Origin: an uncultured Bacteroidia bacterium
GTDB lineage: Bacteria > Bacteroidota > Bacteroidia > Bacteroidales > UBA932
NCBI GenBank assembly: GCA_902788175.1
Contig: CADAJF010000005.1
Location: forward strand, 62,001 to 126,000
Reading direction: 5' to 3'
Length of the DNA: 64,000 nucleotides
The notes beneath the pieces were generated by a model. That model was not told the origin of the DNA. It saw only the letters and a list, made by a program, of their open reading frames with translations, and did not search any database. Positions 28,719-61,855 of this stretch are shown one piece after another (positions within the stretch are counted from its first letter, which is position 1; the number at the start of each line of letters is the position of its first letter). Position numbers and translations under genes: made by a program.

Positions 28719-29264
28719 TTATTTCAGGGCAGAGTATTTGCGATACTCAGAGGGGAGCATCCCAAACCGATCCTTGAACGAGCGGTAGAAGGTAGAGGTT
28801 GTCTTGAATCCGGCCCGTTCGCCTACGGTGGTAACGGGTAAATCCTTCTCATTTACAAGCAGTTGCGCCGCATAACGGAGCCTGTAGGAGTTCACGTAAT
28901 CCCTGATGGGCAGCCCGCCGGTTATGCTCTTTACCGCAGAGGAGAGGTAGGTGCGGTTGGTTCCCAGCATCTTGGCCAATTTTTCACGGTCCAGTTGCTG
29001 GTCCCGGAACACCTCCCCTTCCTGCAAGAGCTCCGTAAGGCGTTTGAACAGCAGCTGGTCCTGCGTGAGCTGGGCCTCCGGAAGGCTTTGCAGCAGATGA
29101 TCGGCTGCTCCTTTAATGCGGAAGGTGTCTTCGGCCTGGCGGTACAGCAGCTTGTTCTTGCGATGGAGGGAAAGGTACATCCAGGCAAGAGCGCCACACA
29201 AAAGAGTCAGGACAACAATCGCAATTCCGGCCAGCGGCCCACATGACAACATCTCCATTTTCAT
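28719..29264 (-). CDS. Small membrane-anchored AraC-family regulator
   Basis: The 181-residue protein has one transmembrane helix (residues about 11-33, GIAIVVLTLLCGALAWMYLSL), a short linker and an AraC helix-turn-helix pair (about 95-178, KMLGTNRTYLSSAVKSITGG and VGERAGFKTTSTFYRSFKDRFGMLPSEYRK). There is no room for a periplasmic sensor, so the signal must come from a partner or from the membrane. The C-terminal half resembles the TPR-AraC regulator at the right end of the window. It lies 78 bases upstream of the flavoprotein gene on the same strand, which may be its target (inference). Confidence 0.85.
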   Translation of the reverse strand: MKMEMLSCGPLAGIAIVVLTLLCGALAWMYLSLHRKNKLLYRQAEDTFRIKGAADHLLQSLPEAQLTQDQLLFKRLTELLQEGEVFRDQQLDREKLAKMLGTNRTYLSSAVKSITGGLPIRDYVNSYRLRYAAQLLVNEKDLPVTTVGERAGFKTTSTFYRSFKDRFGMLPSEYRKYSALK

Positions 29265-36664: not shown

Positions 36665-36841
36665 ATGAACAAAATAGTCCTGCCACAGAAGCAGAAGGGG
36701 AAAATTTATCTTTCCCCCCACGCCGAGACCATCGAGGTTCAAGCACCTCAACTTATCTGTCAATCCAACACCGAAACAATCAAGCCAGGCACAGAAACCG
36801 ACTGGGTTATGGGCGGAGGTCATTCTAACGGTTTGTTTTAA
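36665..36841 (+). CDS. Small peptide of the Y-x-x-P family (58 residues)
   Basis: Reads MNKIVLPQKQKGKIYLSPHA, continues ETIEVQAPQLICQSN and ends GGGHSNGLF. Y15-L-S-P-H-A-E-T-I-E-V aligns with the core of the peptides at 45-55 kb, and a Gly-rich end is typical. There is no signal peptide. It lies 24 bases before a fimbrillin-like lipoprotein gene, the same arrangement as the other members. Confidence 0.65.
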   Translation: MNKIVLPQKQKGKIYLSPHAETIEVQAPQLICQSNTETIKPGTETDWVMGGGHSNGLF

Positions 36842-45632: not shown

Positions 45633-45696
45633 TGTCAGAATGAGACAAAAAATTGTCAATTTGAGACATCGGTTTGCGCGTGAAATGGCATTTTTG
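45633..45696 (+). promoter_or_regulatory. Twin-site promoter, copy 1 (drives peptide and lipoprotein at 45.7-47.5 kb)
   Basis: Sites TGTCAGAATGAGACA (45633-45647) and TGTCAATTTGAGACA (45654-45668), centres 21 bp apart, each with TGTC...GACA symmetry. Twenty bases on (TCGGTTTGCGCG...) lies CATTTTTG (45689-45696) as the -7 box. The proximal site occupies the -33 position. The same layout recurs at 49.2, 52.7 and 56.3 kb. Confidence 0.8.
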
Positions 45697-45713: not shown

Positions 45714-45896
45714 ATGAAAATCAACAACTATCTCCCTCCCCGTTGCAAGGCGTACTGCCTTGCAGGGGAAAGTATCATTTGCGGCAGCAGCAAGCTTAAC
45801 GGCAACTACAACGGGTTCGGAAGCGAACACGATATGGGCGGCAGTTACGGCGGAGGCGGAGGCTTCAATGGTTTTGGTGACGAATATGACATGTAA
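45714..45896 (+). CDS. Small peptide of the Y-x-x-P family with Gly-rich tail (60 residues)
   Basis: Begins MKINNYLPPRCKAYCLAGES and ends in a Gly-rich tail (NGFGSEHDMGGSYGGGGG then FNGFGDEYDM). Y6-L-P-P-R-C aligns with YLPPQC of the peptide at 52.6 kb. No signal peptide or double-glycine cleavage site is certain. It starts 17 bases after the -7 box, and the lipoprotein ATG is 13 bases after its stop. Confidence 0.75.
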   Translation: MKINNYLPPRCKAYCLAGESIICGSSKLNGNYNGFGSEHDMGGSYGGGGGFNGFGDEYDM

Positions 45897-45909
45897 AAAA
45901 TCTACAGAT

Positions 45910-47514
45910 ATGAAAAAGTTTATTCTACTCTTTGGCGCAGCCATCCTGGCCCTATCTTCCTGCCGGAAGGAAAGCCCTGTCATTATCGATATTCCCCAGG
46001 AGCCGGAAGCTCCGGCAAAGGCCATTACCTATTCCCTGGATGCCATCCATCCGGACGGTGCTGCCACCAAGGCCGTAAAAACCGGCTGGGAGACGGGGGA
46101 CGTGATTTTTGTATTCTTCTCCGGCGCCCCTGTCCCGGGTTATCTGGAGATGAAATGGGACGGCACCAAGTGGAACTTCACGGAAAAGAACAGCCTGGCC
46201 ATTCCCGATGGCCAGGGAACCATGTATGCCGTGTACCAGCCCTTCGGTAACGACAATGAGGTGCTGGCCGATAACGGCAACTGGGTTTTCAAGGACATCC
46301 ATTACACCTATTTTCTGCGAGACAGCCAGTCTTACAATATTTCCAATGGCCAGGTGAGCGGAACCTTCAATATGGGCATTCCGCATGGATTTGTGCAGTT
46401 TTTCCTGGACGACCCTTTGGCCGATTCCTCTACGGAGATGGAACTGCGCGAGATATTTCTCACTCCACAGGCTGTTAATTCTGTCCATCCGGAATATGGG
46501 ATATCATGGATATCGGGACACCGTGGCGCACCGTTACCCGGTTATGTCTATGACAAGGAGAACAAGGCCAGCGGCGAGCAAAAGGGCTGGCTATTCAGCG
46601 GAACGCTGATCTACAACAACTGTATGGGCGCTGCTGCCGACTATCATTTCACCCTGGTCAAAGGCGGCTGGCAGGGACGCTATTACCAAAAATCCTTCCT
46701 GAACAAGCAGTATTACACAAGCCACTCTGAGCGCCGTGCCCTCAAAATGCCTGCCCTTAGCACCTGGACGGAACTTACAGGCTGCAAGCCCATCGATTTG
46801 GGCACGAAAACTGCATATGGAGACATTCACACCTATTGGAGCTCCTGCAACCTGGGCGCCAGCAAAGACTTCCCAGACGGAAACACGCTGGAGGAGTGCC
46901 AGGCCACCTGGGGAGACTACTACGCCTGGGGCGCCACGGAGCCCCATTACCAGGCAGGCCATGCCTACGACAATCCCTGCTCCCACTGGAAGCCGGGGCT
47001 GACGGGATATGATTGGGACTCATATCCGCATTCGGGGAATAATGCCCATTCCATATTCAAATACACTTTTGCAGACGGCGAGGACGATGCCGACTGGTAC
47101 AATGGCCCCGGCCAGTTCATTGGAGACAACTTGAGGTGGCTTGAGAGAGAGGACGACGCTGCGGCCGTAGCTTTGGGCGGCCGCTGGGAGACGCCAACCG
47201 TTGAAGACTGGGAAGTTTTGTTTGACACAAATAACTTTACCATAAGCTTTGATCCGGACCATAGGGGCGTGAAATTCACCAGTAAAATCCCCGGCTATGA
47301 AGGCCGCAGCATCTTCCTGCCTCTTGCCGGCGCGCGTGGACACGATTATTTAGCCGAATTCGAATACGAAGTACGGGGTTATTACTGGAGTCGCGAACTG
47401 AGCAATGATCTATCCACGGACGCCAGAACTGCTGTAATTTTGCGCCAAGAAAGTGGCTACCTACCAAATATGCCACGATTGTTCGGCATGCCCATCCGCC
47501 CCGTCACCTATTAA
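45910..47514 (+). CDS. Fimbrillin-like lipoprotein with FISUMP-type C-terminal domain
   Basis: Start MKKFILLFGAAILALSSC at 45910 gives 534 residues. The N-terminal domain carries the array hallmark ATKAVKTGWETGDVIFVFF, followed by a beta-sandwich with VSGTFNMGIPHGFVQFFLDD. From about residue 300 a domain of the Fibrobacter-major-paralogue type appears: WSSCNLGASKDF, WGDYYAWGATEPHY, GGRWETPTVEDWEVLF, IFLPLAGARG, YYWSRE and GMPIRPVTY. It is probably a surface adhesin or structural subunit. It is the only array member on the plus strand and ends 30 bases before palindrome copy 3. Confidence 0.82.
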   Translation: MKKFILLFGAAILALSSCRKESPVIIDIPQEPEAPAKAITYSLDAIHPDGAATKAVKTGWETGDVIFVFFSGAPVPGYLEMKWDGTKWNFTEKNSLAIPDGQGTMYAVYQPFGNDNEVLADNGNWVFKDIHYTYFLRDSQSYNISNGQVSGTFNMGIPHGFVQFFLDDPLADSSTEMELREIFLTPQAVNSVHPEYGISWISGHRGAPLPGYVYDKENKASGEQKGWLFSGTLIYNNCMGAAADYHFTLVKGGWQGRYYQKSFLNKQYYTSHSERRALKMPALSTWTELTGCKPIDLGTKTAYGDIHTYWSSCNLGASKDFPDGNTLEECQATWGDYYAWGATEPHYQAGHAYDNPCSHWKPGLTGYDWDSYPHSGNNAHSIFKYTFADGEDDADWYNGPGQFIGDNLRWLEREDDAAAVALGGRWETPTVEDWEVLFDTNNFTISFDPDHRGVKFTSKIPGYEGRSIFLPLAGARGHDYLAEFEYEVRGYYWSRELSNDLSTDARTAVILRQESGYLPNMPRLFGMPIRPVTY

Positions 47515-47544
47515 ACTTAATTGGCTCTCTGTCAGTCACTTCCG

Positions 47545-47580
47545 AAAAGGGGGTCGTTGCAAATTGCAACGACCCCTTTT
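47545..47580. repeat. Dispersed palindrome, copy 3 (between convergent lipoprotein genes)
   Basis: Arms AAAAGGGGGTCGTTGCAA and TTGCAACGACCCCTTTT, with one extra G on the left. The centre equals copy 2, but the outer arm has changed sequence on both sides so that pairing is kept. It is followed by CAAAAACAGCTGCGCATCAG. It lies about 30 bases from the stop of each flanking gene and could terminate both. Confidence 0.85.
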
Positions 47581-47611
47581 CAAAAACAGCTGCGCATCAG
47601 GATCTTGCCAG

Positions 47612-49048
47612 TCACAATGCCATGACCGGCCTCACCGACGTACCCATTTTCCGCATGAGCGTTCCGTCGGGAGCGACTGTCGGGCCATTGAAAATACTAT
47701 TGAAATGGGGATGGCGGCCGTAAATGGACAGGCGGTACGCGAGGTCGTTTGTGTCTGCCTCGCCGGAAGACCAGAAGGCACCCACATAACTGTCAAACTC
47801 CCTTTTGCCGTCAAAGTAATACCCCGAGGTCAGAAAGACCAGGGACAGGCCGTTCTTCTTGCTGGTTGCCAGATAGACACCCGCCTGCTGGTCTCCTGAA
47901 TCCTTCGTCACCCAGGTCCAGGTGGCGTTGTTGTACAGGCTTGTGTATTCCGCCCTGGTGGGCAGGCGCCAGGAAGTGTTTTTCGCATAGGCCGGGTCCG
48001 TGCTTGTCACGTCGTAACTGCCCTGATAATAAGCCCCCCCGGCGTAGGGAGTGGTCTTTCCCCACATATACCAGTTGCCCGGCTGGAGCGGATCAGCAAT
48101 ATAGGGGGCGTCCTCCTGAAGATTGCCGATGCTCCATAGAACCCCCGTTCCCATATCCACGAAGTGCCTCTCCTGCCAGCCGCCCAGTTTGAAGGCAGCC
48201 TTGCTTACGGCCCCTCCTTCGACGACATACATCGTGGCGGTAACGCCGGCCTTGCCTTTTACGGCCGATACGTAGCTGTGCCCTTCCCGCTCGCTTTGCC
48301 GGACCATCTGGAAAGAATAGTTGGTCGATACGCCCCTTGACGCCTCACGCAGGATGCCATAAAAATAGTATCCTTTTTCCCCGTCCACCGTGGCGGGAAG
48401 ACCGGGCAGGGGGAAGCCATACGCTCCCGTACTCCAGTTGACGTTTCCGCCCGGAACAATCTTTCCGACGGCTGCGCAGGCGAAGTGGGCTTCCGTCAGC
48501 CACCAGCTGTCGGGCTGGGGGTTGTCATCGGCCACATAAAACTGGACGAATCCTTCCGGGGCCCGCATGTCCAGCTGCGCGCGCACGTTCGTCACGCCGC
48601 CCTCGGCTTCCGCGGTATAGGGAACGGCCTGGGCCGACATGAAATAGCCGCCTTGCCTGGCATCCGGGAACGTGAATCCTTCTCCTTCAACCCAGACGGG
48701 AGCACCGTCGTTCACATACGGGGGGAACCAGACGGCCGATACCTTCTTGCCGGAGGCCGTCAGGTTCAGGCCCTCGAACGCGCTGCCTCCCTGCTTGTCG
48801 GTCTGGTCCCAGGTGGTTCCGTTGAACGTCATCTTCAGGTACTGCAGGGCATTGTCCTCGAAAAAGACATAGAGCACATCACCGCTTTCCCAGTCGGTCT
48901 TGACGCCCTTGGTCGTGGGCATCCCGGCCGATGTGACGGCAATGTCGAATCTGTAAACGGGGGCTTTCCGGATTTCCATCGGGGTTTCCCGCACGCACGC
49001 ACCCAGCGTGAGAGCCAGCACTAATAAGAGGAACAATTTGTTTTTCAT
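47612..49048 (-). CDS. Fimbrillin-like lipoprotein with FISUMP-type C-terminal domain
   Basis: Start MKNKLFLLLVLALTLGAC at 49048 gives 478 residues, 4 bases after the small peptide stop. The N-terminal hallmark is TTKGVKTDWESGDVLYVFFED, then EGFVQFYVADDNPQ. The C-terminal part has GVLWSIGNLQEDAPY, WYMWGKTTPYAGG, SWRLPTRAEYTSLY, AFWSSGEADTND and MGTSVRPVMAL. It is likely surface exposed. It forms a two-gene unit with the peptide, driven by the twin-site promoter at 49.2 kb and ended by palindrome copy 3. Confidence 0.82.
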   Translation of the reverse strand: MKNKLFLLLVLALTLGACVRETPMEIRKAPVYRFDIAVTSAGMPTTKGVKTDWESGDVLYVFFEDNALQYLKMTFNGTTWDQTDKQGGSAFEGLNLTASGKKVSAVWFPPYVNDGAPVWVEGEGFTFPDARQGGYFMSAQAVPYTAEAEGGVTNVRAQLDMRAPEGFVQFYVADDNPQPDSWWLTEAHFACAAVGKIVPGGNVNWSTGAYGFPLPGLPATVDGEKGYYFYGILREASRGVSTNYSFQMVRQSEREGHSYVSAVKGKAGVTATMYVVEGGAVSKAAFKLGGWQERHFVDMGTGVLWSIGNLQEDAPYIADPLQPGNWYMWGKTTPYAGGAYYQGSYDVTSTDPAYAKNTSWRLPTRAEYTSLYNNATWTWVTKDSGDQQAGVYLATSKKNGLSLVFLTSGYYFDGKREFDSYVGAFWSSGEADTNDLAYRLSIYGRHPHFNSIFNGPTVAPDGTLMRKMGTSVRPVMAL

Positions 49049-49052
49049 AACG

Positions 49053-49178
49053 CTACAAATCTTCTTGATTGCCTCCAAAAGGAGGATTATACGTTGGATC
49101 GCTTACGGCAATTACGCCCTCCAGATGCAGCTCAAGCGCTTCGCACTGCGGTGCAAGGTAACTCTTTTTCGGATTCAT
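49053..49178 (-). CDS. Small peptide of the Y-x-x-P family (41 residues)
   Basis: Begins MNPKKSYLAPQCEALELHLE, continues GVIAVSDPTYNPPFGGNQEDL. This is one of the clearest members of the Y-x-A-P-x-C-E-A-L-E-L-x-L-E-G-V-I-A core. It starts 28 bases after the -7 box of the 49.2-kb promoter and stops 4 bases before the lipoprotein ATG. There is no signal peptide; Cys12 and the Gly-Gly near the end are notable. Confidence 0.78.
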   Translation of the reverse strand: MNPKKSYLAPQCEALELHLEGVIAVSDPTYNPPFGGNQEDL

Positions 49179-49206
49179 ATTGTAGTTATATGTTTGATGT
49201 TCGTCA

Positions 49207-49270
49207 CAAAGATGTCCATTCCCGCGCAATCCGATGTCCCATTCTGGCAATTTTTTGTCTCATTCTGACA
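49207..49270 (-). promoter_or_regulatory. Twin-site promoter, copy 2
   Basis: Read on plus, sites TGTCTCATTCTGACA (49256-49270) and TGTCCCATTCTGGCA (49235-49249), centres 21 bp apart; the -7 box CATCTTTG on minus is 49214-49207, exactly 20 bases beyond the proximal site. Confidence 0.8.
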
Positions 49271-49313
49271 AAAATTGCCCTTTCCCGATTGTCTATTGCT
49301 CAGCCACATACAG

Positions 49314-49346
49314 AACATGGTCGTTGCAAGCTGCAACGACCATGTT
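49314..49346. repeat. Dispersed palindrome, copy 4
   Basis: Perfect stem AACATGGTCGTTGCA / TGCAACGACCATGTT around AGC. It is followed by TGATAAACAGCTGTAAGTCAGG. It lies 28 bases beyond the stop of the minus-strand lipoprotein at 49375. The outer arm differs from copies 1, 2, 3 and 5 but still pairs. Confidence 0.85.
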
Positions 49347-49374
49347 TGATAAACAGCTGTAAGTCAGGAAGAAT

Positions 49375-50784
49375 CTACTCCGCCTTCCGGATGCCCCGGA
49401 CAGAGTGGCCGAAGGAGCGGTCGGAGTACCTCCAGCTCGGATATTCGGACTGGAAGTACGCGCTGCACGCTTTGTCCGGGTATTCTGTATAGAGGGAAGA
49501 AGACCAGTAGTAGCCGTTGATGCCCGCCATGCTGAGGTTCCTGCCTTCGCGATGACCCGCGGCGGGAAGGAAGATGCTGTTGCCCTCGTAACCCGCCTTG
49601 CGGCTGATTACCAGACTGCCTTTCCTGCCGCTTCCATTGAAGTTCTCTACCCAAACCCAGTAGAAGCTGAACTCGCTGAGAAGCGCCTTCCACTCCTCCT
49701 GCGTGGGCATGCGCCAGCCTGAACCCATATTTTGCGTAGCGGCATCGTCCGCAGGCTGCAAGACGGAATCATCGCTGCCCGTGTATTTGCTGAAGGTACT
49801 GCCGTCACCCCATTGATAAGAAGGCCAGGAGTAACCGTCGGCCTTGCCGTCCTTCCAATTCGCGGTGCCTGTGTTTTCCTCGTCGTAGGCATGGCCCGCC
49901 CTGTAGTACGGCTCCACCTCACCCCAGGCAAAGTAATCGCCGTAGTCCTCCGGCTTGTCCGCACCCACGTTCCTGACCGCCCACTTCAGGCCGTCGCCCA
50001 TTGCGACGTAATCGGCAGCCTCGCTCTGCAGGGTCATCTTCAGGGTGGACCGGTAGTACTTGCCGGCCTCGAAAGTGACATCGGCCCGGAAGAAACGGTA
50101 ACTGGACGTTCCCTTGTCGCCGGGGACCGAGACGGTCATCGCCTCTCCGCTGATCGCAGGAAGCAAGAGGTAATACTCGCTCGTCGCGGCAGACGGTGTG
50201 GCGACAAAGGTATCCGTATTGGCGGCCACCACCAGCGACTTCGCCATGATGGCCGATCCGTCTTCATCCTGCAGGGTGAACTTGAAGATAGATCCCAATG
50301 GGGTGAGGGGCATCGTCAGTGTCAGGCCGGCATCGGGCGTAGCGGGGCTGATGACGCCCATGCCGTAGCGGACATCCGGGATTGTGTTCAGATCTCCGCT
50401 CTGGAAGACAATGGTGGACTCATCGAGCGCCGTGGACGGGTAGAGGATTTCGCAGTCGGTTCCGTCCGGGGTGGAAGGATCTACCGTGAACTCGATGGTG
50501 GCGGCGCCGGAAGCGTCCACGGATACGACGCTGGCTACGGCCAAATAATCGTCATTTAACAGCTTGTACACGATGGCCAATGTCTCACCCACGGCCCAGC
50601 TGGCCGTGAGTTTCCCGTCCCCGTTGTCGGCGAGGGCCTTGGTGGGGGCATCCTTCGGAGCCAGGGTGGCCGTAAGGGTAATGCCTTTGTTTTCGACAGG
50701 CAGCAGCTGCTCCTCCGTTTCACTCTTGCTGCAGGCGGCGAGGGTAAGGGAGAGCGCCGCCAATGCGATAAGTTTTTTCATCAT
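49375..50784 (-). CDS. Fimbrillin-like lipoprotein with FISUMP-type C-terminal domain
   Basis: A 469-residue lipoprotein (MKKLIALAALSLTLAAC). Its N-terminal domain (ITLTATLAPKDAPTKALADN, LTASWAVGETLAIVYKL) is more divergent than in the other array members. The C-terminal domain is a clear FISUMP-type module: GLKWAVRNVGADKPEDYGDY, FAWGEVEPYYRAGHAY, GSGWRMPTQEEWKALLSEF, NSIFLPAAGHREG, GYYWSSSLYTE and SFGHSVRGIRKAE. Two small peptide genes precede it, and palindrome copy 4 follows. Confidence 0.83.
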   Translation of the reverse strand: MMKKLIALAALSLTLAACSKSETEEQLLPVENKGITLTATLAPKDAPTKALADNGDGKLTASWAVGETLAIVYKLLNDDYLAVASVVSVDASGAATIEFTVDPSTPDGTDCEILYPSTALDESTIVFQSGDLNTIPDVRYGMGVISPATPDAGLTLTMPLTPLGSIFKFTLQDEDGSAIMAKSLVVAANTDTFVATPSAATSEYYLLLPAISGEAMTVSVPGDKGTSSYRFFRADVTFEAGKYYRSTLKMTLQSEAADYVAMGDGLKWAVRNVGADKPEDYGDYFAWGEVEPYYRAGHAYDEENTGTANWKDGKADGYSWPSYQWGDGSTFSKYTGSDDSVLQPADDAATQNMGSGWRMPTQEEWKALLSEFSFYWVWVENFNGSGRKGSLVISRKAGYEGNSIFLPAAGHREGRNLSMAGINGYYWSSSLYTEYPDKACSAYFQSEYPSWRYSDRSFGHSVRGIRKAE

Positions 50785-50801
50785 GTATTATCCTCCATTC
50801 A

Positions 50802-50939
50802 TTAAGGGTTCAGCGGATCGTAGCCGCCGTCTTCATAATTACTCAGGCCACTGATTGTCAGGACCACACCTTCGAGCTTCAGCTCCACCGCCAGGCACTC
50901 CGGCCGGCAGTACTTTTCTTTGACTGCGCTGTTCTTCAT
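50802..50939 (-). CDS. Small peptide of the Y-x-x-P family (45 residues)
   Basis: Begins MKNSAVKEKYCRPECLAVEL, continues KLEGVVLTISGLSNYEDGGY and ends DPLNP. The Y-C-R-P-E-C-L-A-V-E-L-K-L-E-G-V-V core matches the family. It stops 17 bases before the lipoprotein ATG and starts 15 bases after a second, shorter peptide gene, giving a tandem pair. Confidence 0.75.
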   Translation of the reverse strand: MKNSAVKEKYCRPECLAVELKLEGVVLTISGLSNYEDGGYDPLNP

Positions 50940-50954
50940 AAATTCTTTTCTATT

Positions 50955-51050
50955 TTACAAACTGCAATGCGTCTGCAACAGATGTCCTTCCGTTGTCACC
51001 GCCAGCATGTATACTGCGGGCGGTTCATAATACTGTTTCTTTTCCATCAT
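50955..51050 (-). CDS. Shortest peptide of the Y-x-x-P family (31 residues)
   Basis: Reads MMEKKQYYEPPAVYMLAVTT then EGHLLQTHCSL. Y-Y-E-P-P-A-V-Y-M-L-A-V-T-T-E-G-H-L-L aligns with the family core, but the variable tail is almost absent. It begins 20 bases after the upstream lipoprotein stop. It is too short for usual gene callers; the second Met is an equally possible start. Confidence 0.6.
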   Translation of the reverse strand: MMEKKQYYEPPAVYMLAVTTEGHLLQTHCSL

Positions 51051-51070
51051 GATTTCATTGAAAAGCGGCG

Positions 51071-52558
51071 CTATTGCAAGGTGAATACGGGGCGGATGGG
51101 GGTGCCATACTCGGCCATTAATGTTCTAATATTTATTGGGACAGAAGGGGTACAAATAAAAATGTCTGCCGTTTCGGATCCCAAAGAATTTTTTCCTTTA
51201 TACTCGGGGGTCCAGCAGATAATGGCATCAAGGTTTTTTATGCTTAAATCCGAACCAAAGGCATTTGAAGAATGCGGCAAATAGAAATAATTGTTTGTAT
51301 AACCGGATTTTTTACCACAGAATGCCCGGACGCTGTTATTCAAGTCTTCTTGAGTGTAACCATGCTCGGTATAATCCCACAAACGCCTCCATTCATCAGA
51401 CGTAGGCATGCGCCAGGCGCCGCCCAGAACCACATAAGCTGCATCGTAGGCCGGCTTTAAATAGTTGTTTTCATCCAATTCGGGGAAGGAAAAATTGCTC
51501 TCTGAAAAATTATGATTGAAGGAGTACTTCCCATTGGCCCCAAGAATACGCGGGTAGCCGGTGGTCTGGCCCCAGGCAAAATACAAACCGGGATCATAAT
51601 CGGATGTGGCGCCCAGGTTGCGCCGGGCCCAGTACATTCGTTTGCCGTCGGCATTGTCAATGCCCAGGTCCTCGTATGGCGTGGCCTTCCACTTGCTTTC
51701 GTCGGAGATGTCCCCCAGGTTCACGCTCAGGTTTCCGTTCACGGTCTTGGGACCTACGCTCCGCGTGTAGGCAATCTTGTTCTTCTGGTCCAGGATGGTG
51801 AAATCGAAGGTTACGGGCGTTCCCACGGCGCTTGCGTCCAGAAGGCCGGCAAAGTGCATGGCACTGCCGTCCTTCCGCCCCACGATGAGCCGCTCACGGT
51901 CCAAGCCATAGGCTCCGTACCAAAGTTCCAAGGCTGAGTGGGTAACGCCGGTCACGTACAGTTTCCTCAGGTATTTCATGTTCAAGTGATACGTGCGGGA
52001 GGGGTCGAAGCCCGTCACCTGGAAGTCGATGAGTTTTCCCGAAGACGAGTCCGTGTACTGCGGCGCGGCCATCCTGAGTGTGGCCGTGAGCCCGCCGGTG
52101 CTGCTGTACGTGTAGTCCACAAGGCCGGACTCCAGGAAATAGTCGTAGTATGACAGCGCGTTGTATGAGGTGATACCGGGCTCCGGACGGACAGACTGAT
52201 TATGGGGCAGGTGGATGGCGCGGAGTTTCTTGGACGAAGCATTTGCAATCTCATCCTCTGTGAGACCGTGTTTGCATGTGCCAACCCAGCTGGCTCCGCT
52301 ATACTTTAACTCAAGGTATTTATGGACATCCGTCTTGAAAAACACAAGGATAACGTCGCCCACAGCCCACCCGGTTTTGATGGCCTTGGTGTCGGCCGAC
52401 CACCCGGCATGGGAAATGGTAAGGTTAAGCTTGAGTTCCTCCCCGGAGTTTGTCTCCTCCACGGGCGTCTGCCCGGCGTCAGGCTCCGGAAGGGTGGTCT
52501 TGGTGCAGGCGGCAAAGGCAAACGCCGCGCAAACGATGATGGCGGTAATCTTTTTCAT
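51071..52558 (-). CDS. Fimbrillin-like lipoprotein with FISUMP-type C-terminal domain
   Basis: Start MKKITAIIVCAAFAFAAC at 52558 gives 495 residues. The N-terminal hallmark is DTKAIKTGWAVGDVILVFFKTD, followed by a long loop (KHGLTEDEIANASSKKLRA) and SSGKLIDFQVTGFDPSRTYH. The C-terminal module has MYWARRNLGATSDYDPGLYF, AWGQTTGYPRI, GGAWRMPTSDEWRRLWDY, NYFYLPHSS and YGTPIRPVFTLQ. It is the first lipoprotein of a unit that contains three peptide genes and the lipoprotein at 49.4 kb, all behind the 52.7-kb twin-site promoter. Confidence 0.82.
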   Translation of the reverse strand: MKKITAIIVCAAFAFAACTKTTLPEPDAGQTPVEETNSGEELKLNLTISHAGWSADTKAIKTGWAVGDVILVFFKTDVHKYLELKYSGASWVGTCKHGLTEDEIANASSKKLRAIHLPHNQSVRPEPGITSYNALSYYDYFLESGLVDYTYSSTGGLTATLRMAAPQYTDSSSGKLIDFQVTGFDPSRTYHLNMKYLRKLYVTGVTHSALELWYGAYGLDRERLIVGRKDGSAMHFAGLLDASAVGTPVTFDFTILDQKNKIAYTRSVGPKTVNGNLSVNLGDISDESKWKATPYEDLGIDNADGKRMYWARRNLGATSDYDPGLYFAWGQTTGYPRILGANGKYSFNHNFSESNFSFPELDENNYLKPAYDAAYVVLGGAWRMPTSDEWRRLWDYTEHGYTQEDLNNSVRAFCGKKSGYTNNYFYLPHSSNAFGSDLSIKNLDAIICWTPEYKGKNSLGSETADIFICTPSVPINIRTLMAEYGTPIRPVFTLQ

Positions 52559-52580
52559 GGCTCTCTTTCTTTTACGGGGT

Positions 52581-52691
52581 TTACCACTTCTGCGTGTCTC
52601 CAAACGGATCCACAAAACTTTGGGCAATCACTCCTTCGGTCTGGAGCTCCAATGTCTCGCACTGAGGCGGGAGATACTTTTGCAGATTCAT
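52581..52691 (-). CDS. Small peptide of the Y-x-x-P family (36 residues)
   Basis: Begins MNLQKYLPPQCETLELQTEG, continues VIAQSFVDPFGDTQKW. It has the complete core Y-L-P-P-Q-C-E-T-L-E-L-x-x-E-G-V-I-A-Q-S and a short variable tail. ATG lies 27 bases after the -7 box; the stop is 22 bases before the lipoprotein ATG. Confidence 0.78.
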   Translation of the reverse strand: MNLQKYLPPQCETLELQTEGVIAQSFVDPFGDTQKW

Positions 52692-52717
52692 AGGGCTTTT
52701 CGTTTTACGTTCTGCTG

Positions 52718-52781
52718 CAAAGATGCCCTATCCCGCGCAAACCGATGTCTCAAATTGACAATTTTTTGTCTCATTCTGACA
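52718..52781 (-). promoter_or_regulatory. Twin-site promoter, copy 3
   Basis: Read on plus, sites TGTCTCATTCTGACA (52767-52781) and TGTCTCAAATTGACA (52746-52760), 21 bp apart; minus-strand -7 box CATCTTTG at 52725-52718 after a 20-base spacer. Confidence 0.8.
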
Positions 52782-52864
52782 AAAATTGCCCATTTGCCAT
52801 TCTGTGCGCAGCAATAAATCTCCTCTGGTGTCCTGACAAACGCGTTGGGGGCCGATGGAAAGAT

Positions 52865-52935
52865 ACAGGCGACAGCCTGTCCGTCTTTGCAAAAACGCCT
52901 TAAAATGCTTGGACGGGAAGCTGTCGCCTGTTTTT
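52865..52935. terminator. Large stem-loop after the LRR remnant
   Basis: ACAGGCGACAGC (52865-52876) pairs with GCTGTCGCCTGT (52920-52931), with an inner CCGTC/GACGG pair. The T5 run is on the plus strand, although the only nearby gene end is on the minus strand (52946), so direction is unclear. Confidence 0.5.
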
Positions 52936-52945
52936 GGGGGCCGGG

Positions 52946-53437
52946 CTACTGGCTCTGCTGCACGGTCCAGCCGGTGGGGATGCCGCTGATGCCGGAGGGC
53001 CAGGTGACACCGGACTTTTTGACGAAGGTGCCACTTGAGGGGACACCGCTCAGCCAGTCGTCGGTGTAGTCGGCTCCGGGGTTGGTTGCCAGGCAGGTGA
53101 CGTTGCCAAGCAAGGTGCAGTCACGGAACATGAAGGCGTAGCACCCGGAAACCAGCTTGGCGGCTTTCAGCTCCGGGGCGCTTGCCAGCGCTCTGCAGTT
53201 GTCGAACATATTCATGTAGCAGCCTTCCGCAAGGTTGGTGGCGGGAAGTTCCGGGGCGTCTTGCAGCCGGATGCATCCGCTGAACATGCCGCTGTAGCAG
53301 AACGCGGCCAGGTTGGTGGCAGGAAGCACCGGGGGCTTCCTGAGCTGGTTACAACCGCTGAACATGTTGGCATAGCACTCACTTCCCAGGGTGGTGGCGG
53401 GAAGCAGCGTTGCGGCAGCGGGCTCAGGGTGACTTGT
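52946..53437 (-). pseudogene. C-terminal remnant of a BspA-type leucine-rich-repeat protein
   Basis: About 163 codons encode three to four LRR units of the LPATxLAxxCYxxMFxGCxxL type and the usual BspA-like tail (DWLSGVPSSGTFVKKSG, then PSGISGIPTGWTV). No signal peptide or start precedes the repeats: the frame opens directly at the TAA of the upstream lipoprotein, in the same frame. The first Met (53365) is inside a repeat. It is probably the end of a larger protein left by recombination; stop-codon readthrough to make a fused product is an alternative. Confidence 0.65.
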
Positions 53438-54778
53438 TTAGAAGCTTATCTCGTCATGGAAGGGGTTAAAGGTGGGTGTCGTGGGGCTTTTGAGGGCGCG
53501 CACCATCAGTATATCTGACAAGCCGCACAACTCGTGGCCGATGCCGCTATGGCCGACGCGGATAGACGTTCCGGGCAAAGAGGTCCAATACGGTCCTTCG
53601 GGAAGGAAGATAAATCCCGAATCTCCCCAGATTACCAACCCCCATACAGATTCTTTAAATCTTATGGATGCATGGTTAAGGGTGGGCTCATTTGTCACAG
53701 GGTCTTTAATCAAATTCAGCCACTGATCGACCGAGGGAACAATGTATCCCAGGCTCGTTGCGGTTGAATAGTCATGTTCTGTACCATAATCCTCGGGTGC
53801 CGACGCTTCGTAGTTGCAGGTGTGCCATTCGCCGTAGGATACACCGTCCTTGACAAGTTCCACGGTCTTATCCGGCCCTACTTCCAGCCAGCGTGTACTG
53901 CTTTTGGCGGGAAGGACTATGGCGTTGTGGTTGGAGATGGTCTTGCCGGATACAAACAAATTTTTTCTGGAAAGGGTATTGCCTTGGAACATATCTCTCA
54001 ATACAAAGTAGTAATTGTTCCCGTACTCGTCCAGGTAATCAGGGTCAAGGATACCACTGAAAAGCCATCCGCCCTTGTAAGGGTTGCCCGCCATTGGATA
54101 ACCATAGGGGCCCTTATCCTGGTTAATATCCAGATTCTCCGTGACACCCCAGAACTGAGTGGAACTTATGGCTCCTGTAGACAACCATAACCGGGATGAG
54201 GAAGTCCCTGCGGACGCGTCTTCTATCCAGAACTGGACAAAAACTTCCGGAATGGTCATATTAAACGCTCCGGAAACCTTCCCGTTCTTTACGACAAAAG
54301 TGAGTGTTGCAGTAAGGTAGTATGATTCGTCCTCCTCCCCCGTGCAGTGGAAGGCGTAGTGTGTTGAAGAGCCATTAAAAATTGTCGTAGAAGATGTTGC
54401 AAAAGGCAGATGCACCGCCCGCATGGTGCCTGTGTCCCCTTCCTGCAGGCCAAGTGCGCCCACCTCTACGTTCGCTGCGTTCATCTCCACGTTTGTCCAG
54501 GCGGATCCGTCGTAACGCATCTGCAGGTGCCTGGGGGATGGCACCCCTTCAAAGAAGACATATATCACGTCGCCATCTTCCCAGCCAGTTTTCACGGCTT
54601 TGGTGGCGGGGCCGCCGTCGGAATAATCGGCCGAAAGGTCAAAGACGATGGGCGTGGCGGTGGTTTCCGCCTGGGTCTCACGTTCGGGTTCAGGAACGGG
54701 CTCAATCTCGGGAACTACATTTTCTTTCTGGCACGCTGCCAGGGCCACAAGGGCTGTGAGGAAAATAATCTTTTTCAT
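53438..54778 (-). CDS. Fimbrillin-like lipoprotein
   Basis: Start MKKIIFLTALVALAAC at 54778 gives 446 residues. After a Glu/Pro-rich linker (EPVPEPERETQAETT) comes the hallmark ATKAVKTGWEDGDVIYVFFEG, then VSGAFNMTIPEVFVQFWIED. The C-terminal region (YGEWHTCNYEASAPEDYG, GYIVPSVDQWLNLI, SGFIFLPEGPYWTSLP) is a shorter, diverged FISUMP-like module. It is closely similar to its upstream neighbour at 54.9 kb in linker, hallmark and C-terminal layout, which points to tandem duplication. It stops at TAA with an in-frame LRR remnant beyond. Confidence 0.82.
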   Translation of the reverse strand: MKKIIFLTALVALAACQKENVVPEIEPVPEPERETQAETTATPIVFDLSADYSDGGPATKAVKTGWEDGDVIYVFFEGVPSPRHLQMRYDGSAWTNVEMNAANVEVGALGLQEGDTGTMRAVHLPFATSSTTIFNGSSTHYAFHCTGEEDESYYLTATLTFVVKNGKVSGAFNMTIPEVFVQFWIEDASAGTSSSRLWLSTGAISSTQFWGVTENLDINQDKGPYGYPMAGNPYKGGWLFSGILDPDYLDEYGNNYYFVLRDMFQGNTLSRKNLFVSGKTISNHNAIVLPAKSSTRWLEVGPDKTVELVKDGVSYGEWHTCNYEASAPEDYGTEHDYSTATSLGYIVPSVDQWLNLIKDPVTNEPTLNHASIRFKESVWGLVIWGDSGFIFLPEGPYWTSLPGTSIRVGHSGIGHELCGLSDILMVRALKSPTTPTFNPFHDEISF

Positions 54779-54797
54779 ATGGGAGTGGGCTGATTGT

Positions 54798-54935
54798 CTA
54801 AAAGTAAATTTCATTGGGGTCGAAGCCATTAAAATTAGGATTTCCCGAAGCGGGGCTCTGCGCAATGACTCCTTCCAGGCGCAGTTCCAGCGCTTCGCAC
54901 AGGGGTGCGGTATAGCTTGTTTTGTCTGTTTTCAT
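54798..54935 (-). CDS. Small peptide of the Y-x-x-P family (45 residues)
   Basis: Begins MKTDKTSYTAPLCEALELRL, continues EGVIAQSPASGNPNFNGFDP and ends NEIYF. The core is nearly identical to that of the 49.1-kb peptide, while the tail is different. It starts 6 bases after the stop of one lipoprotein and ends 19 bases before the next, so it is cotranscribed between the two. Confidence 0.78.
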   Translation of the reverse strand: MKTDKTSYTAPLCEALELRLEGVIAQSPASGNPNFNGFDPNEIYF

Positions 54936-54941
54936 AGGGCT

Positions 54942-56279
54942 TTACAGGGTGCGTTCAGGGTTAAACAGGGTCAGAGACGGGTCTGTAGGGCCCACGAGGG
55001 CGCGGACAAGCGCATTGGCGCTTTTGTCAATATCTTTGATGTAAGGAGCCGACACACTGTGATTCACTACAACAGCATATGCCTCGGCGTCTTCGGCGCC
55101 GGAATAAGGGGTTGATGTCCAGTAGACTCCATCCTGCAGGAAGATAAACTTGCCATCCTTGTCCACTCCCGCAAGCCCCGGAATCAAATCTTCTCCCACG
55201 CAGACGGGAGCCCAGGAAAGGCCGCCGATAAGCGCTTCCCACTCCTGCTTGTCCGGAACGGTTTCACCCAGGGAAACGGCCGTGGCAAAGTTGTATTCCT
55301 TAGGATAATCATACCCGGGATATCGGTCGCCGAAGTTCTTGATCTTCCACTTGCCCAGGGAGGCCTGTGTGCTGCTCAGTTCCACAAAGTCGTCATCTTC
55401 CAGGACCGGCTGCCAGCGGGAGCTCTCCCATGACGGGAGTTTGATGGCATCGTGGCTCTGGATGGGGGCCGATGCCTTCACATACAGATCCTCCATTTCC
55501 GTCACATGCATAGTTCCACGATATTCCTTCTTCGTTTTACGGAAATAATAGCTGCTGCCAAATTCGGTGGTATATCCCTCTGCCAGGCGGCCGGCAAAAA
55601 GAAAGCCCCCTTCGTAGGCATTGGGGAGAATGCCCTTGCCGGCAGAGTAATCGAATTCGTAAATATCCATACTGTCAGGAATAATCTCGTTGATTTCGAC
55701 AGGTTTTATCGCCGGACAGTAAAGATAGTACTCATCTCTTGTAGCCAGCTTGGCGGCGGCATCCGGGTCCTCTATCCAGAACTGGACCATTCCTTCGGGA
55801 ATGCACATGTTGAACGCGCCGGACACTTTATTGTTGTTTACCACATAGTGGAGCGTGCCAGTAAGCCAGTAAGAATAATATGCAGGCTGATTCGCACTTG
55901 AGAAGAAAAACGACCCGCTGTAGTCGGTCGTAATAACAGTGTCATTCCCGAAAGGGAAGTAAACGGCCCGCATCAGCCCTTCCTGTCCGTTGGAAAGGCC
56001 AATGTCACCCTCAGTGTCGCCGTTCATCTGAACGGCAGTCCAGGAGCTGCCGTCGTAGCGCAGCTGAAGATGTTTTGGGGCCTCTACGCCCTGGAAGAAG
56101 ACAAAGACCACGTCGCCGGCCTCCCATCCGGTTTTCACGGCTTTGGTGGCATTGCCATAGTTGGCCGTCAGTTCAAAAGTAATGGGAGAAGCCGTCTCTT
56201 GCACCGTTTCAGGTTGTACGGTTTCTTTTTGGCAGGCCACAAGGGCCACAAGGATTGTGAGAAGGAAAAACTTTTTCAT
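54942..56279 (-). CDS. Fimbrillin-like lipoprotein
   Basis: Start MKKFFLLTILVALVAC at 56279 gives 445 residues, with hallmark ATKAVKTGWEAGDVVFVFFQG, then VSGAFNMCIPEGMVQFWIED. The C-terminal part (LGKWKIKNFGDRYPGYDYPK, GETVPDKQEWEALIGGLSW, GKFIFLQDGVYWTSTPY) parallels the neighbour at 53.4 kb. It is the one array lipoprotein with no small peptide gene directly in front; instead it follows the twin-site promoter by 29 bases and is followed by a peptide gene. Confidence 0.82.
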   Translation of the reverse strand: MKKFFLLTILVALVACQKETVQPETVQETASPITFELTANYGNATKAVKTGWEAGDVVFVFFQGVEAPKHLQLRYDGSSWTAVQMNGDTEGDIGLSNGQEGLMRAVYFPFGNDTVITTDYSGSFFFSSANQPAYYSYWLTGTLHYVVNNNKVSGAFNMCIPEGMVQFWIEDPDAAAKLATRDEYYLYCPAIKPVEINEIIPDSMDIYEFDYSAGKGILPNAYEGGFLFAGRLAEGYTTEFGSSYYFRKTKKEYRGTMHVTEMEDLYVKASAPIQSHDAIKLPSWESSRWQPVLEDDDFVELSSTQASLGKWKIKNFGDRYPGYDYPKEYNFATAVSLGETVPDKQEWEALIGGLSWAPVCVGEDLIPGLAGVDKDGKFIFLQDGVYWTSTPYSGAEDAEAYAVVVNHSVSAPYIKDIDKSANALVRALVGPTDPSLTLFNPERTL

Positions 56280-56308
56280 AAAGCGTTTTGTGTTTATGTT
56301 GTCTGTTG

Positions 56309-56372
56309 CAAAAATGCCCATTCTCGCGCAAACCGATGTCTCATTCTGACAAAAAAATGTCTCATTCTGACA
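56309..56372 (-). promoter_or_regulatory. Twin-site promoter, copy 4
   Basis: Two identical sites TGTCTCATTCTGACA (56337-56351 and 56358-56372, read on plus), 21 bp apart; minus-strand -7 box CATTTTTG at 56316-56309 after a 20-base spacer. Confidence 0.82.
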
Positions 56373-59471: not shown

Positions 59472-61673
59472 TCATTGAATGGTTACCCTGCATCTGGCGG
59501 AAACGGTCTTTGAGCCCCGGGTGAGCGAGCAGGTGATCCAGGCGGAGCCGGAGGATGCCACGGCGGTCACCTTGCCATTTGAAACGGTGCAGACCGATGT
59601 GTTGTCGGAGCTCCAGCTGCACTGTGCCGCAGAGATGCCGAGGTTCTGCCCGGAAGACGTGCCGTCGTGGTACAAGACCGTGGGAGTGAGGGTGGTGGAT
59701 GCGCCGCGGGCAAGACTGACTGTACTCTTGTCAAGTGACATTGACTCAAGTTCCCGGATGGTAAACTTAACCTTCACCGGCCAGTAGTAAGTACCTTCGG
59801 TAGGATGTACGGCGTAGAAAGTCACAACATCTCCGGTTTTTAACTGGTGCGATGAAACGTACCATACCCCATTCCGGTTAGTCCCGGCAGGATATGAATT
59901 GGTATTCCCAGTACCACTACAACTAACCAGTAACATGGCGACCTCTAAAGAATAACTGAAGTTAAAATTCTCTCCCTTCCAAAGGGTTACGTTCGGGGAG
60001 GCTAACACGAGCTCGAAAAGGAAAGGGAGGTAGGTCCTGACCCAGGCGGTGGCAGAGAAGGAGTCCATACCTCCGGTAATAGAGCAGGTTAAACACACCG
60101 GATCTGCGCCTTTCCAATGCGCAGAGACTATGCCGGAGGGGTTGACCGTACAAACGCTTTGATTGGAACTTTGCCAAGTCCAGCCGGAGCCAAGCAGTTT
60201 GTTTTGCGGATCCTGACCATCATTGTAATAGACGATGGGTGCGATGAGCCGGGTGGCAATACCGGGCGATGGAGCAACCATCATCTCTATAGGCGATGAA
60301 GACTCGGATGCCGGGTCCAACGTTAAGGATATGAGTTGCTGCGTCCGGATTTTGATAATTTTCTGCTTCTGAACTACATTTGCCCCGCTTCCCCGCGTGC
60401 CCGTTACGCGGATATAGATGATGCCGCGCTCTGTAGGGGTTGTCGAGAAAGTTCTCCCGTCGGAGGAAACGGTGCTGGTGTAGGGAAGATCGGTCACGTC
60501 CCTGTCATACCAGTTCACAGCATCCGTACTCCACTCGTACGAGTACTCTGGTGCAGGTCTGGCGCTGGAATAAAGGCTGAATGCGGCCTGCTCGCCTCTC
60601 CAGACAACAATGCTGTCTTTACTAGGGGTGAAGTCGAATTTTGGGAAGTAATAATCCCCTTGGTAGCTTTGCAGCATCTGCCCGTCTATGTACACGGTGG
60701 CATCCAGCAGGTTCGGGACACTCATATTGTCGATGAAAACCTTGCTGCAGGCCGGGAACTGGAGCCATTCGCCGTTCTTTTTCAGCTCAAGCTTACGGAT
60801 GACGCCGTTGTTGAAAGTCAGTGTCAGCGTCAGCTTATCCTGCATCAGCGGAAGGGTGAAAAGGGTGAACGAACGGGGCTGGGTCTTGCTAAGCTGGATG
60901 CCGCTGCCAAGATCCAGGCTAACCGATCGCGTAGGGCTGTAAAGAGTTGTGTCCGAGCAGTTTACATCATTGTCCCCGGTAGCGTCAATCTTCACCGAGA
61001 AATCGCCGGCCATGTCCGAGACTGCGCTGCTAAGCTCCAGTTTTTTCAGTAGCGTACCTTCCGGAATCTCGCTGTCCGCCAGGGTTGTGAGCGAAATGCG
61101 AAACGTTGTTACCAGGGGCTTGAACTTCAGTCTCACCTTGGACTGCGAAGTTGTTTCCTCGCTTGTGGCAACGGCGTACATACAAGCGTTGTTCATATTC
61201 GGCATGTACTCTGTGCGGCTGCTGTTCCAGGACCCTCCTTGCCCCGAAGGAATTGTGGCCCTGAATGTGCGGGATGTATTTGTCAGGGAGCCGAATGTAA
61301 CGCCCTCGGCCGGGTAAGAGGCATGGAAATAGTGTTTCCCGCTTCCCCAATGCAGGCCATTCTTGTTGACAGGAGTGATGGAGCCCTTGGTACGGTCCGA
61401 TGTGGGGGTCACGGTGTAGTCCGCCCATGAATTTCCCGACGGGTCTGCCGCCTGGTCGCAGAGAATCCGAATCTTGTCGCCGTCTATCCAGTAAATGTCT
61501 TCTATCTCTCCGGTGGCATAACTCCCGCCGGCATATTCCGTCTTGGTAGAAACGCCGCCCATCGAGGCGCTGAAGAAGATGGTACCCCCCCTTCCTATTG
61601 GCATGTCCTCCAAACACGACACCGCTGCGCACAAAGCCGCAGCCAGCATCAATATCAAAGGTGCTCGCTTCAT
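59472..61673 (-). CDS. Fimbrillin-like lipoprotein with bacterial Ig-like (Big2) C-terminal domains
   Basis: The 733-residue lipoprotein (LCAAVSC) has a fimbrillin-type first domain (STKTEYAGGSYATGEIEDIY, WIDGDKIRILCDQA). Later domains include an Ig/PKD-like segment (AAFSLYSSARPAPEYSYEWS) and Big2-like repeats, clearest at the C-terminus (MSLDKSTVSLARGASTTLTP, CTVSNGKVTAVASSGSAWIT). It is preceded by a small peptide gene 2 bases upstream and followed by the LRR lipoprotein 13 bases downstream. It is probably a surface adhesin or pilus-associated protein. Confidence 0.84.
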   Translation of the reverse strand: MKRAPLILMLAAALCAAVSCLEDMPIGRGGTIFFSASMGGVSTKTEYAGGSYATGEIEDIYWIDGDKIRILCDQAADPSGNSWADYTVTPTSDRTKGSITPVNKNGLHWGSGKHYFHASYPAEGVTFGSLTNTSRTFRATIPSGQGGSWNSSRTEYMPNMNNACMYAVATSEETTSQSKVRLKFKPLVTTFRISLTTLADSEIPEGTLLKKLELSSAVSDMAGDFSVKIDATGDNDVNCSDTTLYSPTRSVSLDLGSGIQLSKTQPRSFTLFTLPLMQDKLTLTLTFNNGVIRKLELKKNGEWLQFPACSKVFIDNMSVPNLLDATVYIDGQMLQSYQGDYYFPKFDFTPSKDSIVVWRGEQAAFSLYSSARPAPEYSYEWSTDAVNWYDRDVTDLPYTSTVSSDGRTFSTTPTERGIIYIRVTGTRGSGANVVQKQKIIKIRTQQLISLTLDPASESSSPIEMMVAPSPGIATRLIAPIVYYNDGQDPQNKLLGSGWTWQSSNQSVCTVNPSGIVSAHWKGADPVCLTCSITGGMDSFSATAWVRTYLPFLFELVLASPNVTLWKGENFNFSYSLEVAMLLVSCSGTGNTNSYPAGTNRNGVWYVSSHQLKTGDVVTFYAVHPTEGTYYWPVKVKFTIRELESMSLDKSTVSLARGASTTLTPTVLYHDGTSSGQNLGISAAQCSWSSDNTSVCTVSNGKVTAVASSGSAWITCSLTRGSKTVSARCRVTIQ

Positions 61674-61675
61674 GA

Positions 61676-61855
61676 CTATTCCCAGTTGTGATTGAAGGGC
61701 TGTTCTTCGCTCCAGTCGTAGTACTGTACCTTCTGGCCGGTAGTTTCCACCACCACGGCATCATTGATGGAGGCTGTCAGAATGGAAGTTTCCAGGCCGA
61801 CAGGAACACGACGCAGAATAGCAGGAGATCGATATGTGTCCTTCTGTTTTCCCAT
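61676..61855 (-). CDS. Small peptide, divergent member of the Y-x-x-P family (59 residues)
   Basis: Begins MGKQKDTYRSPAILRRVPVG, continues LETSILTASINDAVVVETTG and ends DWSEEQPFNHNWE. Y8-R-S-P...ETSILTAS aligns loosely with the core of the other peptides, and the tail is long and acidic. I recall similar short proteins in Bacteroidales genomes without known function. It stops 2 bases before the downstream lipoprotein ATG. Its -7 box (61906-61913) lacks the twin sites. Confidence 0.7.
   Translation of the reverse strand: MGKQKDTYRSPAILRRVPVGLETSILTASINDAVVVETTGQKVQYYDWSEEQPFNHNWE

Follow-up and report, generated by a model that had tools for sequence, protein, structure and literature searches.

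Lasso-peptide leaders of the YxxP type are bound by stand-alone PqqD-like proteins carrying a RiPP recognition element (RRE), RiPPs being ribosomally made, post-translationally modified peptides, and prochlorosin-type RiPPs combine a conserved leader and a variable core with many scattered precursors and few trans-acting enzymes. The closest described system is that of the linear polyphosphorylated peptides (LPPs) of Bacillota, described in May 2026 for the lpp cluster of Paenibacillus alginolyticus (PMC13381572). In the text of that paper, the precursor has a leader of the form YxxPxVLxHQxIxFETxxS and a variable C-terminus, and the enzymes are the RRE protein LppB, the HprK-like LppK, the archaeal-type signal-peptidase-like LppS, the NTP transferase LppN and the MsbA-like LppD. 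Two LppB residues, N33 and D70, form hydrogen bonds to the Tyr and the Pro kink of the leader. Cleavage follows Thr-1, and core Ser3 is phosphorylated several times (PMC13381572). Section 12 of the paper gives the biological role as not known, and LPPs are called restricted to Bacillota, the string "bacteroid" occurring 0 times in the main text. Here we analysed a window of 64,000 nucleotides from an uncultured Bacteroidales bacterium (contig CADAJF010000005.1, positions 62,001 to 126,000), which holds eight tiny peptide genes, seven of them directly upstream of a lipoprotein gene (Table 1), and we conclude that these tiny genes are most probably precursor genes of an LPP-like RiPP.

This conclusion was reached because operons of related bacteria hold the same kind of peptide together with genes for a predicted binding protein, a kinase, a signal-peptidase-like protein and an exporter. 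The observation behind it, first made in a preliminary description of the window, was confirmed in part and with corrections, and its interpretation was supported in part. All eight short frames were recovered in place and translate as described; in seven of them, 2, 4, 13, 17, 19, 22 and 24 nt separate the stop from a lipoprotein ATG, and for the frame at 50955 the next gene, 15 nt on, is the 50802 peptide gene. Two frames had been started too early, the likely start codons being ATG 49178 (49053 frame) and ATG 61855 (61676 frame). A shared core, Y-x-x-P-x-C-E-x-L-E-L-x-x-E-G-V-I-A-x-S, had been proposed for all eight; it is near-complete only in 49053, 52581 and 54798, and an alignment of the eight peptides leaves only the Tyr and the Pro three residues later invariant.

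We analysed the build of 102 distinct peptides (3 of 105 were dropped as duplicates or for lack of YxxP, so that YxxP was itself a selection criterion). With Tyr set to position 0 and Pro at +3, the head continues with Glu at +13 (78/102), Gly at +14 (59/102), Cys at +17 (69/102) and Ser at +19 (79/102). Information summed over the 21 head codons was 11.6, 16.9 and 4.8 bits at the first, second and third codon position, and AGY encodes the conserved Ser 58 times, TCN 21 times. The constraint thus lies at the protein level, as in a protein-coding family. The tails are acidic, with a mean net charge of -4.2 (81 pairs), and 90 of the 102 peptides have an aromatic residue within the last eight residues. 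The build is that of a conserved head with a variable acidic tail. The family has no model in Pfam or NCBIfam; matches at E≤0.1 are few and involve single members and unrelated models. A PDB search with the peptide gave no useful match, and a low-confidence structure model showed no secondary structure (mean pLDDT 70.8, pTM 0.20).

The pairing with lipoproteins extends beyond the window. A profile of the eight peptides gave 23 matches in the same genome at E≤10, that is, 15 beyond the eight (the weakest four at E 0.03-0.54), and 19 of the 23 are followed by a lipoprotein-type open reading frame (ORF), as judged by eye. The other four are 50955, which precedes a peptide gene, L020 and L029, where the next ORF has a signal peptide and no lipobox, and L026, with no gene within 290 nt. 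In a same-genus sample, the profile matched 81 peptides in 22 of 36 genomes; using a simple lipobox pattern and other short ATG ORFs of the same loci as controls, 69/81 peptides vs 24/1153 controls had a lipoprotein-type ORF no more than 40 nt behind the stop, with a median stop-to-start distance of +13 nt. The genus-trained profile matched none of 24 genomes from other families, and broader profiles later found peptides there. Conversely, a profile built from six lipoproteins of the window gave 19 matches in the own genome, merged by hand into 13 genes with a lipoprotein N-terminus, of which 11 are preceded by a peptide (for one, the link spans a contig break); the two unpaired genes are 54942-56321 and a gene behind another kind of ORF. 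The coupling of peptides to fimbrillin-like lipoproteins is real within the genus and in other families; within the window seven of the eight peptides precede a lipoprotein gene, as had been described, and the fimbrillin-like gene 54942-56321 has no peptide in front.

The resemblance of the peptide head to the lasso YxxP leaders led us to search for PF05402 (PqqD/RRE), which scored above the cut-off in 10/10 peptide-bearing genomes vs 3/14 control genomes. The RRE gene adjoins genes for HprK-like and signal-peptidase-like proteins in nine of the ten, and an ABC exporter gene stands there as well in eight of these nine; in G012 the exporter is absent beside the RRE. The own genome has this set of RRE, HprK-like, signal-peptidase-like and exporter genes on another contig (C25), outside the window, the HprK-like protein having its P-loop intact, and no precursor gene was seen within the 8126 bases read around that RRE. 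Profiles of the cluster proteins gave PqqD at 1.5e-16, ABC_membrane plus ABC_tran, and Peptidase_S24 below the cut-off. The kinase-like proteins had weak, below-cut-off matches to HprK_rel_A and PEPCK/HprK-related models, and their P-loop SGTGKSTH is invariant in 10/10; for two of the peptidase-like proteins the best NCBIfam match, likewise below the cut-off, was TIGR02228 (archaeal signal peptidase I; E 1.4e-10 and 1.8e-8), and the Ser of GxSM and the His of HR are kept in 9/9. NTP_transf_5 was detected by Pfam in G016 (4.8e-32), G054 and G242, with further values of 6.2e-40 and 3.9e-33. Positions corresponding to N33 and D70, the leader-bonding residues of LppB, are kept in 17/17 RREs read, by way of an alignment to 9x8z chain B that is itself a weak match (E 0.93).

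Co-occurrence was evaluated over one set of 199 Bacteroidales genomes, with a broader peptide profile at E≤0.01 and an RRE profile at E≤1e-6. Peptides were found in 14 genomes, RREs in 28 and both in 13 (Fisher 5.9e-12, kinship ignored); put differently, 13/14 peptide-positive vs 15/185 peptide-negative genomes have the RRE. Leaving out the own genus gave 11/12 vs 15/185 (Fisher 2.6e-10, kinship again ignored), and eight of the nine families with peptides have an RRE. Furthermore, the two are physically linked: the peptide lies in or beside the cluster in four genomes of other families, with its own lipoprotein gene right behind it in three. In G242, a single strand carries, in order, peptide, lipoprotein, kinase-like, peptidase-like, RRE, NTP transferase and exporter genes; in G054 the order is peptide, kinase-like, peptidase-like, RRE, NTP transferase, exporter; in G385 it is NTP transferase, kinase-like, peptidase-like, peptide, lipoprotein, a transposase-family gene, RRE, exporter; and in G143 a peptide and lipoprotein stand immediately upstream of exporter and RRE. 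Peptide and RRE are about 5.7 kb apart in G198 and G262 and about 20 kb apart in G223. With a kinase profile, at least 592 loci were confirmed in GTDB genomes, and neighbours were read in the best 80 of them: peptidase-like genes accompanied 76, RREs 74, exporters 62, NTP transferases 13 and peptides 11, eight of the 11 peptides standing directly after the NTP transferase (rumen-type loci). The same best 80 loci read backwards yielded 0 peptides.

Several observations weigh against this interpretation. The co-occurrence statistics ignore shared ancestry; at the thresholds used, the peptide-positive genome G186 yields no RRE and 15 genomes with an RRE yield no peptide, 11 of those RREs being weak matches (E 1e-12 or worse). 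In G032, which has 11 peptides, the best RRE lacks all of these neighbours, the own cluster has no NTP transferase, and the in-cluster peptide of G054 has no lipoprotein. The kinase and peptidase identities derive from sub-threshold matches plus motifs. The full LPP leader motif is absent, its HQxIxFET part being missing. For 12 of the 81 same-genus peptides no lipoprotein was detected within 40 nt; some of these are followed by what looks by eye like a lipoprotein missed by the pattern (e.g. L061, L071, L079), in three a lipoprotein lies at a distance of 153-260 nt, one is truncated where its contig stops, and the gene after L049 encodes an unrelated membrane protein. Ser is absent at +19 in 23/102 peptides, eight of which have Thr, a residue that LppK does not use as substrate according to the text of PMC13381572, and among cluster-linked copies +19 is not Ser in 12/15, though several have Ser one place later.

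With LPP maturation as the guide, a stand-alone PqqD/RRE protein would bind the conserved Y-x-x-P leader, the HprK-like protein would phosphorylate the conserved Ser at about Tyr+19, and the signal-peptidase-like protein would cut the leader just before that Ser, so that the variable acidic core is freed and exported via the ABC exporter. In the 54798 peptide the leader is predicted to reach about residue 24, the conserved Ser being residue 27. The missing secretion signal would be expected if a dedicated ABC exporter carries the peptide. One trans-acting enzyme set might serve about twenty scattered precursors, and each mature peptide might work on the cell surface together with the neighbouring adhesin-like lipoprotein. 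The stricter proposal of one peptide per adhesin, whereby each fimbrillin-like surface lipoprotein has its own phosphorylated acidic RiPP, matured and exported by one shared enzyme set, and the peptide caps, loads or signals for its cognate adhesin extracellularly, is tentative, and we consider it somewhat doubtful.

We also examined how these operons may be controlled. Four tandem operators lie in the window (Table 1), just upstream of four operon promoters; the strict pattern occurs four times in the window vs 0.00 expected and seven times in the genome vs 0 in a reversed control. Relaxing the pattern gives 13 genomic sites, against none in the reversed control: ten upstream of peptide genes and one each upstream of lipoprotein 54942-56321, an AraC-like protein and an outer-membrane-like protein. 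This last site (L177, G000:C22:15224) precedes a 394-aa protein, the outer-membrane-like label being our own, with no peptide gene; the regulon thus extends past the peptide-lipoprotein pairs. The AraC-like protein (354 aa) has a C-terminal AraC helix-turn-helix (HTH; HTH_18 E 4.9e-6, below the cut-off), and its N-terminal half is hydrophobic. Direct repeats spaced by two helical turns are in keeping with an AraC protein, and an AraC-type regulator, perhaps this membrane-bound one with the same operator, may switch the operons of this species together. Two more AraC-type regulators with HTH_18 matches and apparent membrane segments lie near adhesin loci of the window (28719-29264 and 62909-63970). 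A LytTR-type identity of the site was dropped, since the only regulator gene found behind an operator is AraC-like.

The operator was hardly seen outside this species. The strict pattern, with seven sites in the own genome, gave only two poor matches (three mismatches) in 60 relatives, and it is therefore not part of the general system; conservation across the genus was rejected, the 36 same-genus genomes having shown no operator apart from two matches of another kind. A repeat upstream of the G352 regulator was seen only in G352 among four genomes. Contig ends near three operators had suggested an invertible promoter or recombination site; two near-identical copies are the simpler reading. 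At L004 (C5 end), L006 (C15 end) and L162 (C14 end), two near-identical operator-peptide copies run out at contig breaks, both of which continue into one assembled lipoprotein start on C14, as a collapsed repeat or a recombining locus would. Operator, promoter and 5' leader of L003 and L005 are near-identical up to the ATG, which belongs to a lipoprotein in one and to a peptide in the other; the operator-promoter cassette seems to move as a unit.

The peptide might also be a pheromone, sensed in its mature form by the membrane-bound regulator, which would turn on the adhesin operons. This proposal is compatible with the RiPP interpretation and concerns the job of the peptide only. The operator in front of the AraC-HTH gene speaks for it, as does a 60% identical relative of the regulator in G036, located 182 nt before a peptide-lipoprotein pair; the operator was, however, hardly seen in the same-genus genomes, as described above, and of 81 genomes of the genus, 17 with the own one counted have a relative of the regulator, in many cases matched through the HTH part alone. 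We consider a pheromone role unlikely.

The preliminary description had offered three readings: a leader-core peptide, a regulatory leader and a chaperone-like partner. Leader-core is favoured by the likeness of the head to RRE-binding RiPP leaders and by the operons that family genes share with RRE, kinase-like, peptidase-like and exporter genes in other Bacteroidales. If the short frame were a regulatory leader or translational coupler, tuning lipoprotein translation by reinitiation or stalling while its product is useless, the tight stop-to-start distance and the copies directly before lipoproteins would be accounted for. It fits poorly with constraint at the amino-acid level, with peptides in RRE clusters (in G054 with no lipoprotein at all), with the many copies that lie within an operon behind an upstream gene, and with the 5' leader that drives a peptide-less lipoprotein (L003 vs L005), and we regard it as very unlikely. 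Near one-to-one pairing in the own genome, together with tails that vary with the lipoproteins (Mantel r 0.32 vs 0.17 for heads, p 0.001 within genomes), would also suit a cytoplasmic chaperone or export pilot, a small, permanently unmodified protein that would bind its lipoprotein ahead of export by Sec. However, the peptide model is devoid of secondary structure, near-identical tails precede unrelated lipoproteins in G012, the in-cluster peptide of G054 has no lipoprotein to serve, and the RRE linkage would be left unexplained; such a role is highly improbable. Least probable of all is a true lasso peptide with its core closed by a macrolactam ring, to which the YxxP leader, the weak best NCBIfam matches of the RRE (lasso PqqD families) and its only PDB match at E <0.001 (lasso RRE TfuB1, 6jx3) point, whereas the cluster contains a signal-peptidase-like gene and no cyclase or B2-type peptidase was seen in the scanned cluster proteins or in 10 further linked proteins, PF00733/PF13471 not having been searched genome-wide.

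Table 1 Peptide genes, lipoprotein genes and operators in the window.
Feature	Position	Strand	Remarks
YxxP peptide gene	36665..36841	+	58 aa; stop 24 nt upstream of lipoprotein 36866-38074
YxxP peptide gene	45714..45896	+	60 aa, Gly-rich tail; stop 13 nt upstream of lipoprotein 45910-47514
YxxP peptide gene	49053..49178	-	41 aa from likely ATG; frame in preliminary description reaches 49250
YxxP peptide gene	50802..50939	-	45 aa; stop 17 nt upstream of lipoprotein start 50784
YxxP peptide gene	50955..51050	-	31 aa, short tail; stop 15 nt upstream of 50802 peptide gene
YxxP peptide gene	52581..52691	-	36 aa; stop 22 nt upstream of lipoprotein start 52558
YxxP peptide gene	54798..54935	-	45 aa; stop 19 nt upstream of lipoprotein start 54778
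YxxP peptide gene	61676..61855	-	59 aa from likely ATG; frame in preliminary description reaches 61930
Lipoprotein, no Pfam match, 402 aa	36866..38074	+	downstream of 36665 peptide
Fimbrillin-like lipoprotein with extra C-terminal domain	45910..47514	+	downstream of 45714 peptide
Fimbrillin-like lipoprotein	47612..49048	-	downstream of 49053 peptide; sub-threshold Lcl_C match at C-terminus
Fimbrillin-like lipoprotein	49375..50784	-	downstream of 50802 peptide; sub-threshold Lcl_C match
Fimbrillin-like lipoprotein	51071..52558	-	downstream of 52581 peptide
Fimbrillin-like lipoprotein	53438..54778	-	downstream of 54798 peptide; structure model mean pLDDT 85.4
Fimbrillin-like lipoprotein without peptide	54942..56321	-	directly downstream of operator copy
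Lipoprotein with Big_2 domain (E 4.5e-10)	59472..61673	-	downstream of 61676 peptide
Tandem operator, two TGTCANNNTGAGACA-like boxes 21 bp apart	45633..45668	+	just upstream of 45714 promoter
Tandem operator, 2 mismatches	49235..49270	-	upstream of 49053 peptide
Tandem operator	52746..52781	-	upstream of 52581 peptide
Tandem operator	56337..56372	-	upstream of lipoprotein 54942-56321

The predicted structure of lipoprotein 53438-54778 matches solved Bacteroides/Porphyromonas adhesins (3ufi, 3t2l, 5nfi) over residues 40-296, and the model thus resembles members of the FimA/Mfa fimbrillin superfamily; the C-terminal domain seen in the lipoproteins yielded Lcl_C matches below the threshold and nothing else. 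The 61676 peptide, whose stop is 2 nt upstream of the lipoprotein start at 61673, belongs to a subfamily whose tail closes with FNH[TN]WE and shares the FNH[TN]W motif, together with L021, L022, L023 and L025 and with L290:10384-10569 in G198, a genome of another family. That this tail is common to the own genome and G198, where no lipoprotein follows, hints at one conserved core. Elsewhere in the window, a chorismate-synthase-like protein (15350-16429) has a repetitive His/Cys-rich insertion, HCCHGEGHHHDEEHHCC..., unusual for this enzyme, and an adjoining dehydroquinate-synthase-like protein (18386-19531) has three near-identical ALPCAETPENEHEPA-type units; both labels are our own reading.

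The LPP-like interpretation would give an identity to small Bacteroidales proteins that fall outside existing family models and would extend the LPP type from Bacillota to Bacteroidales. The role of LPPs becomes testable here because the precursors adjoin adhesin-like lipoproteins. If the pairing is functional, Bacteroidales show modified peptides with adhesins on their surface, a layer of contact with host and community without parallel in the literature searched, in which we found no account of a coupling between fimbrillins and small-ORF peptides. On the one-peptide-per-adhesin proposal, the RiPP family would serve surface structure, not warfare, with about twenty variants in one genome.

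The system can be set beside three described types. Prochlorosins differ from it in leader, enzymes and chemistry, and we know of no adhesin pairing for their precursors. Paeninodin-type phosphorylated lasso peptides share with it the RRE, the kinase (here a predicted HprK-like one), the NTP transferase, the ABC exporter and a [Y/W]xxP leader, as far as the texts of PMC13381572 and PMC7533575 describe them; here, however, no macrolactam cyclase or B2 peptidase was seen among the scanned cluster proteins, and a signal-peptidase-like protein is present instead. LPPs, as portrayed in the text of PMC13381572, differ in belonging to Bacillota, whereas the phylum here is Bacteroidota; in having one to three precursors per cluster, compared with many, mostly scattered ones here; in the position of the Ser (+18, here +19); and in the pairing with fimbrillin-like lipoproteins, which is particular to the present system. 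Beyond YxxP, the two leaders share a hydrophobic residue near +5 and also a Ser near +19, nothing more, and because the HQxIxFET part is missing we describe the system as LPP-like and do not count it among the LPPs. The likeness to that description otherwise covers a short YxxP-leader precursor with a very variable C-terminus and a Ser right after the predicted cleavage site, a discrete RRE, a predicted HprK-like kinase, a predicted archaeal-type signal-peptidase-like protein and an MsbA-like ABC exporter, with an NTP transferase in some clusters and no cyclase seen in them.

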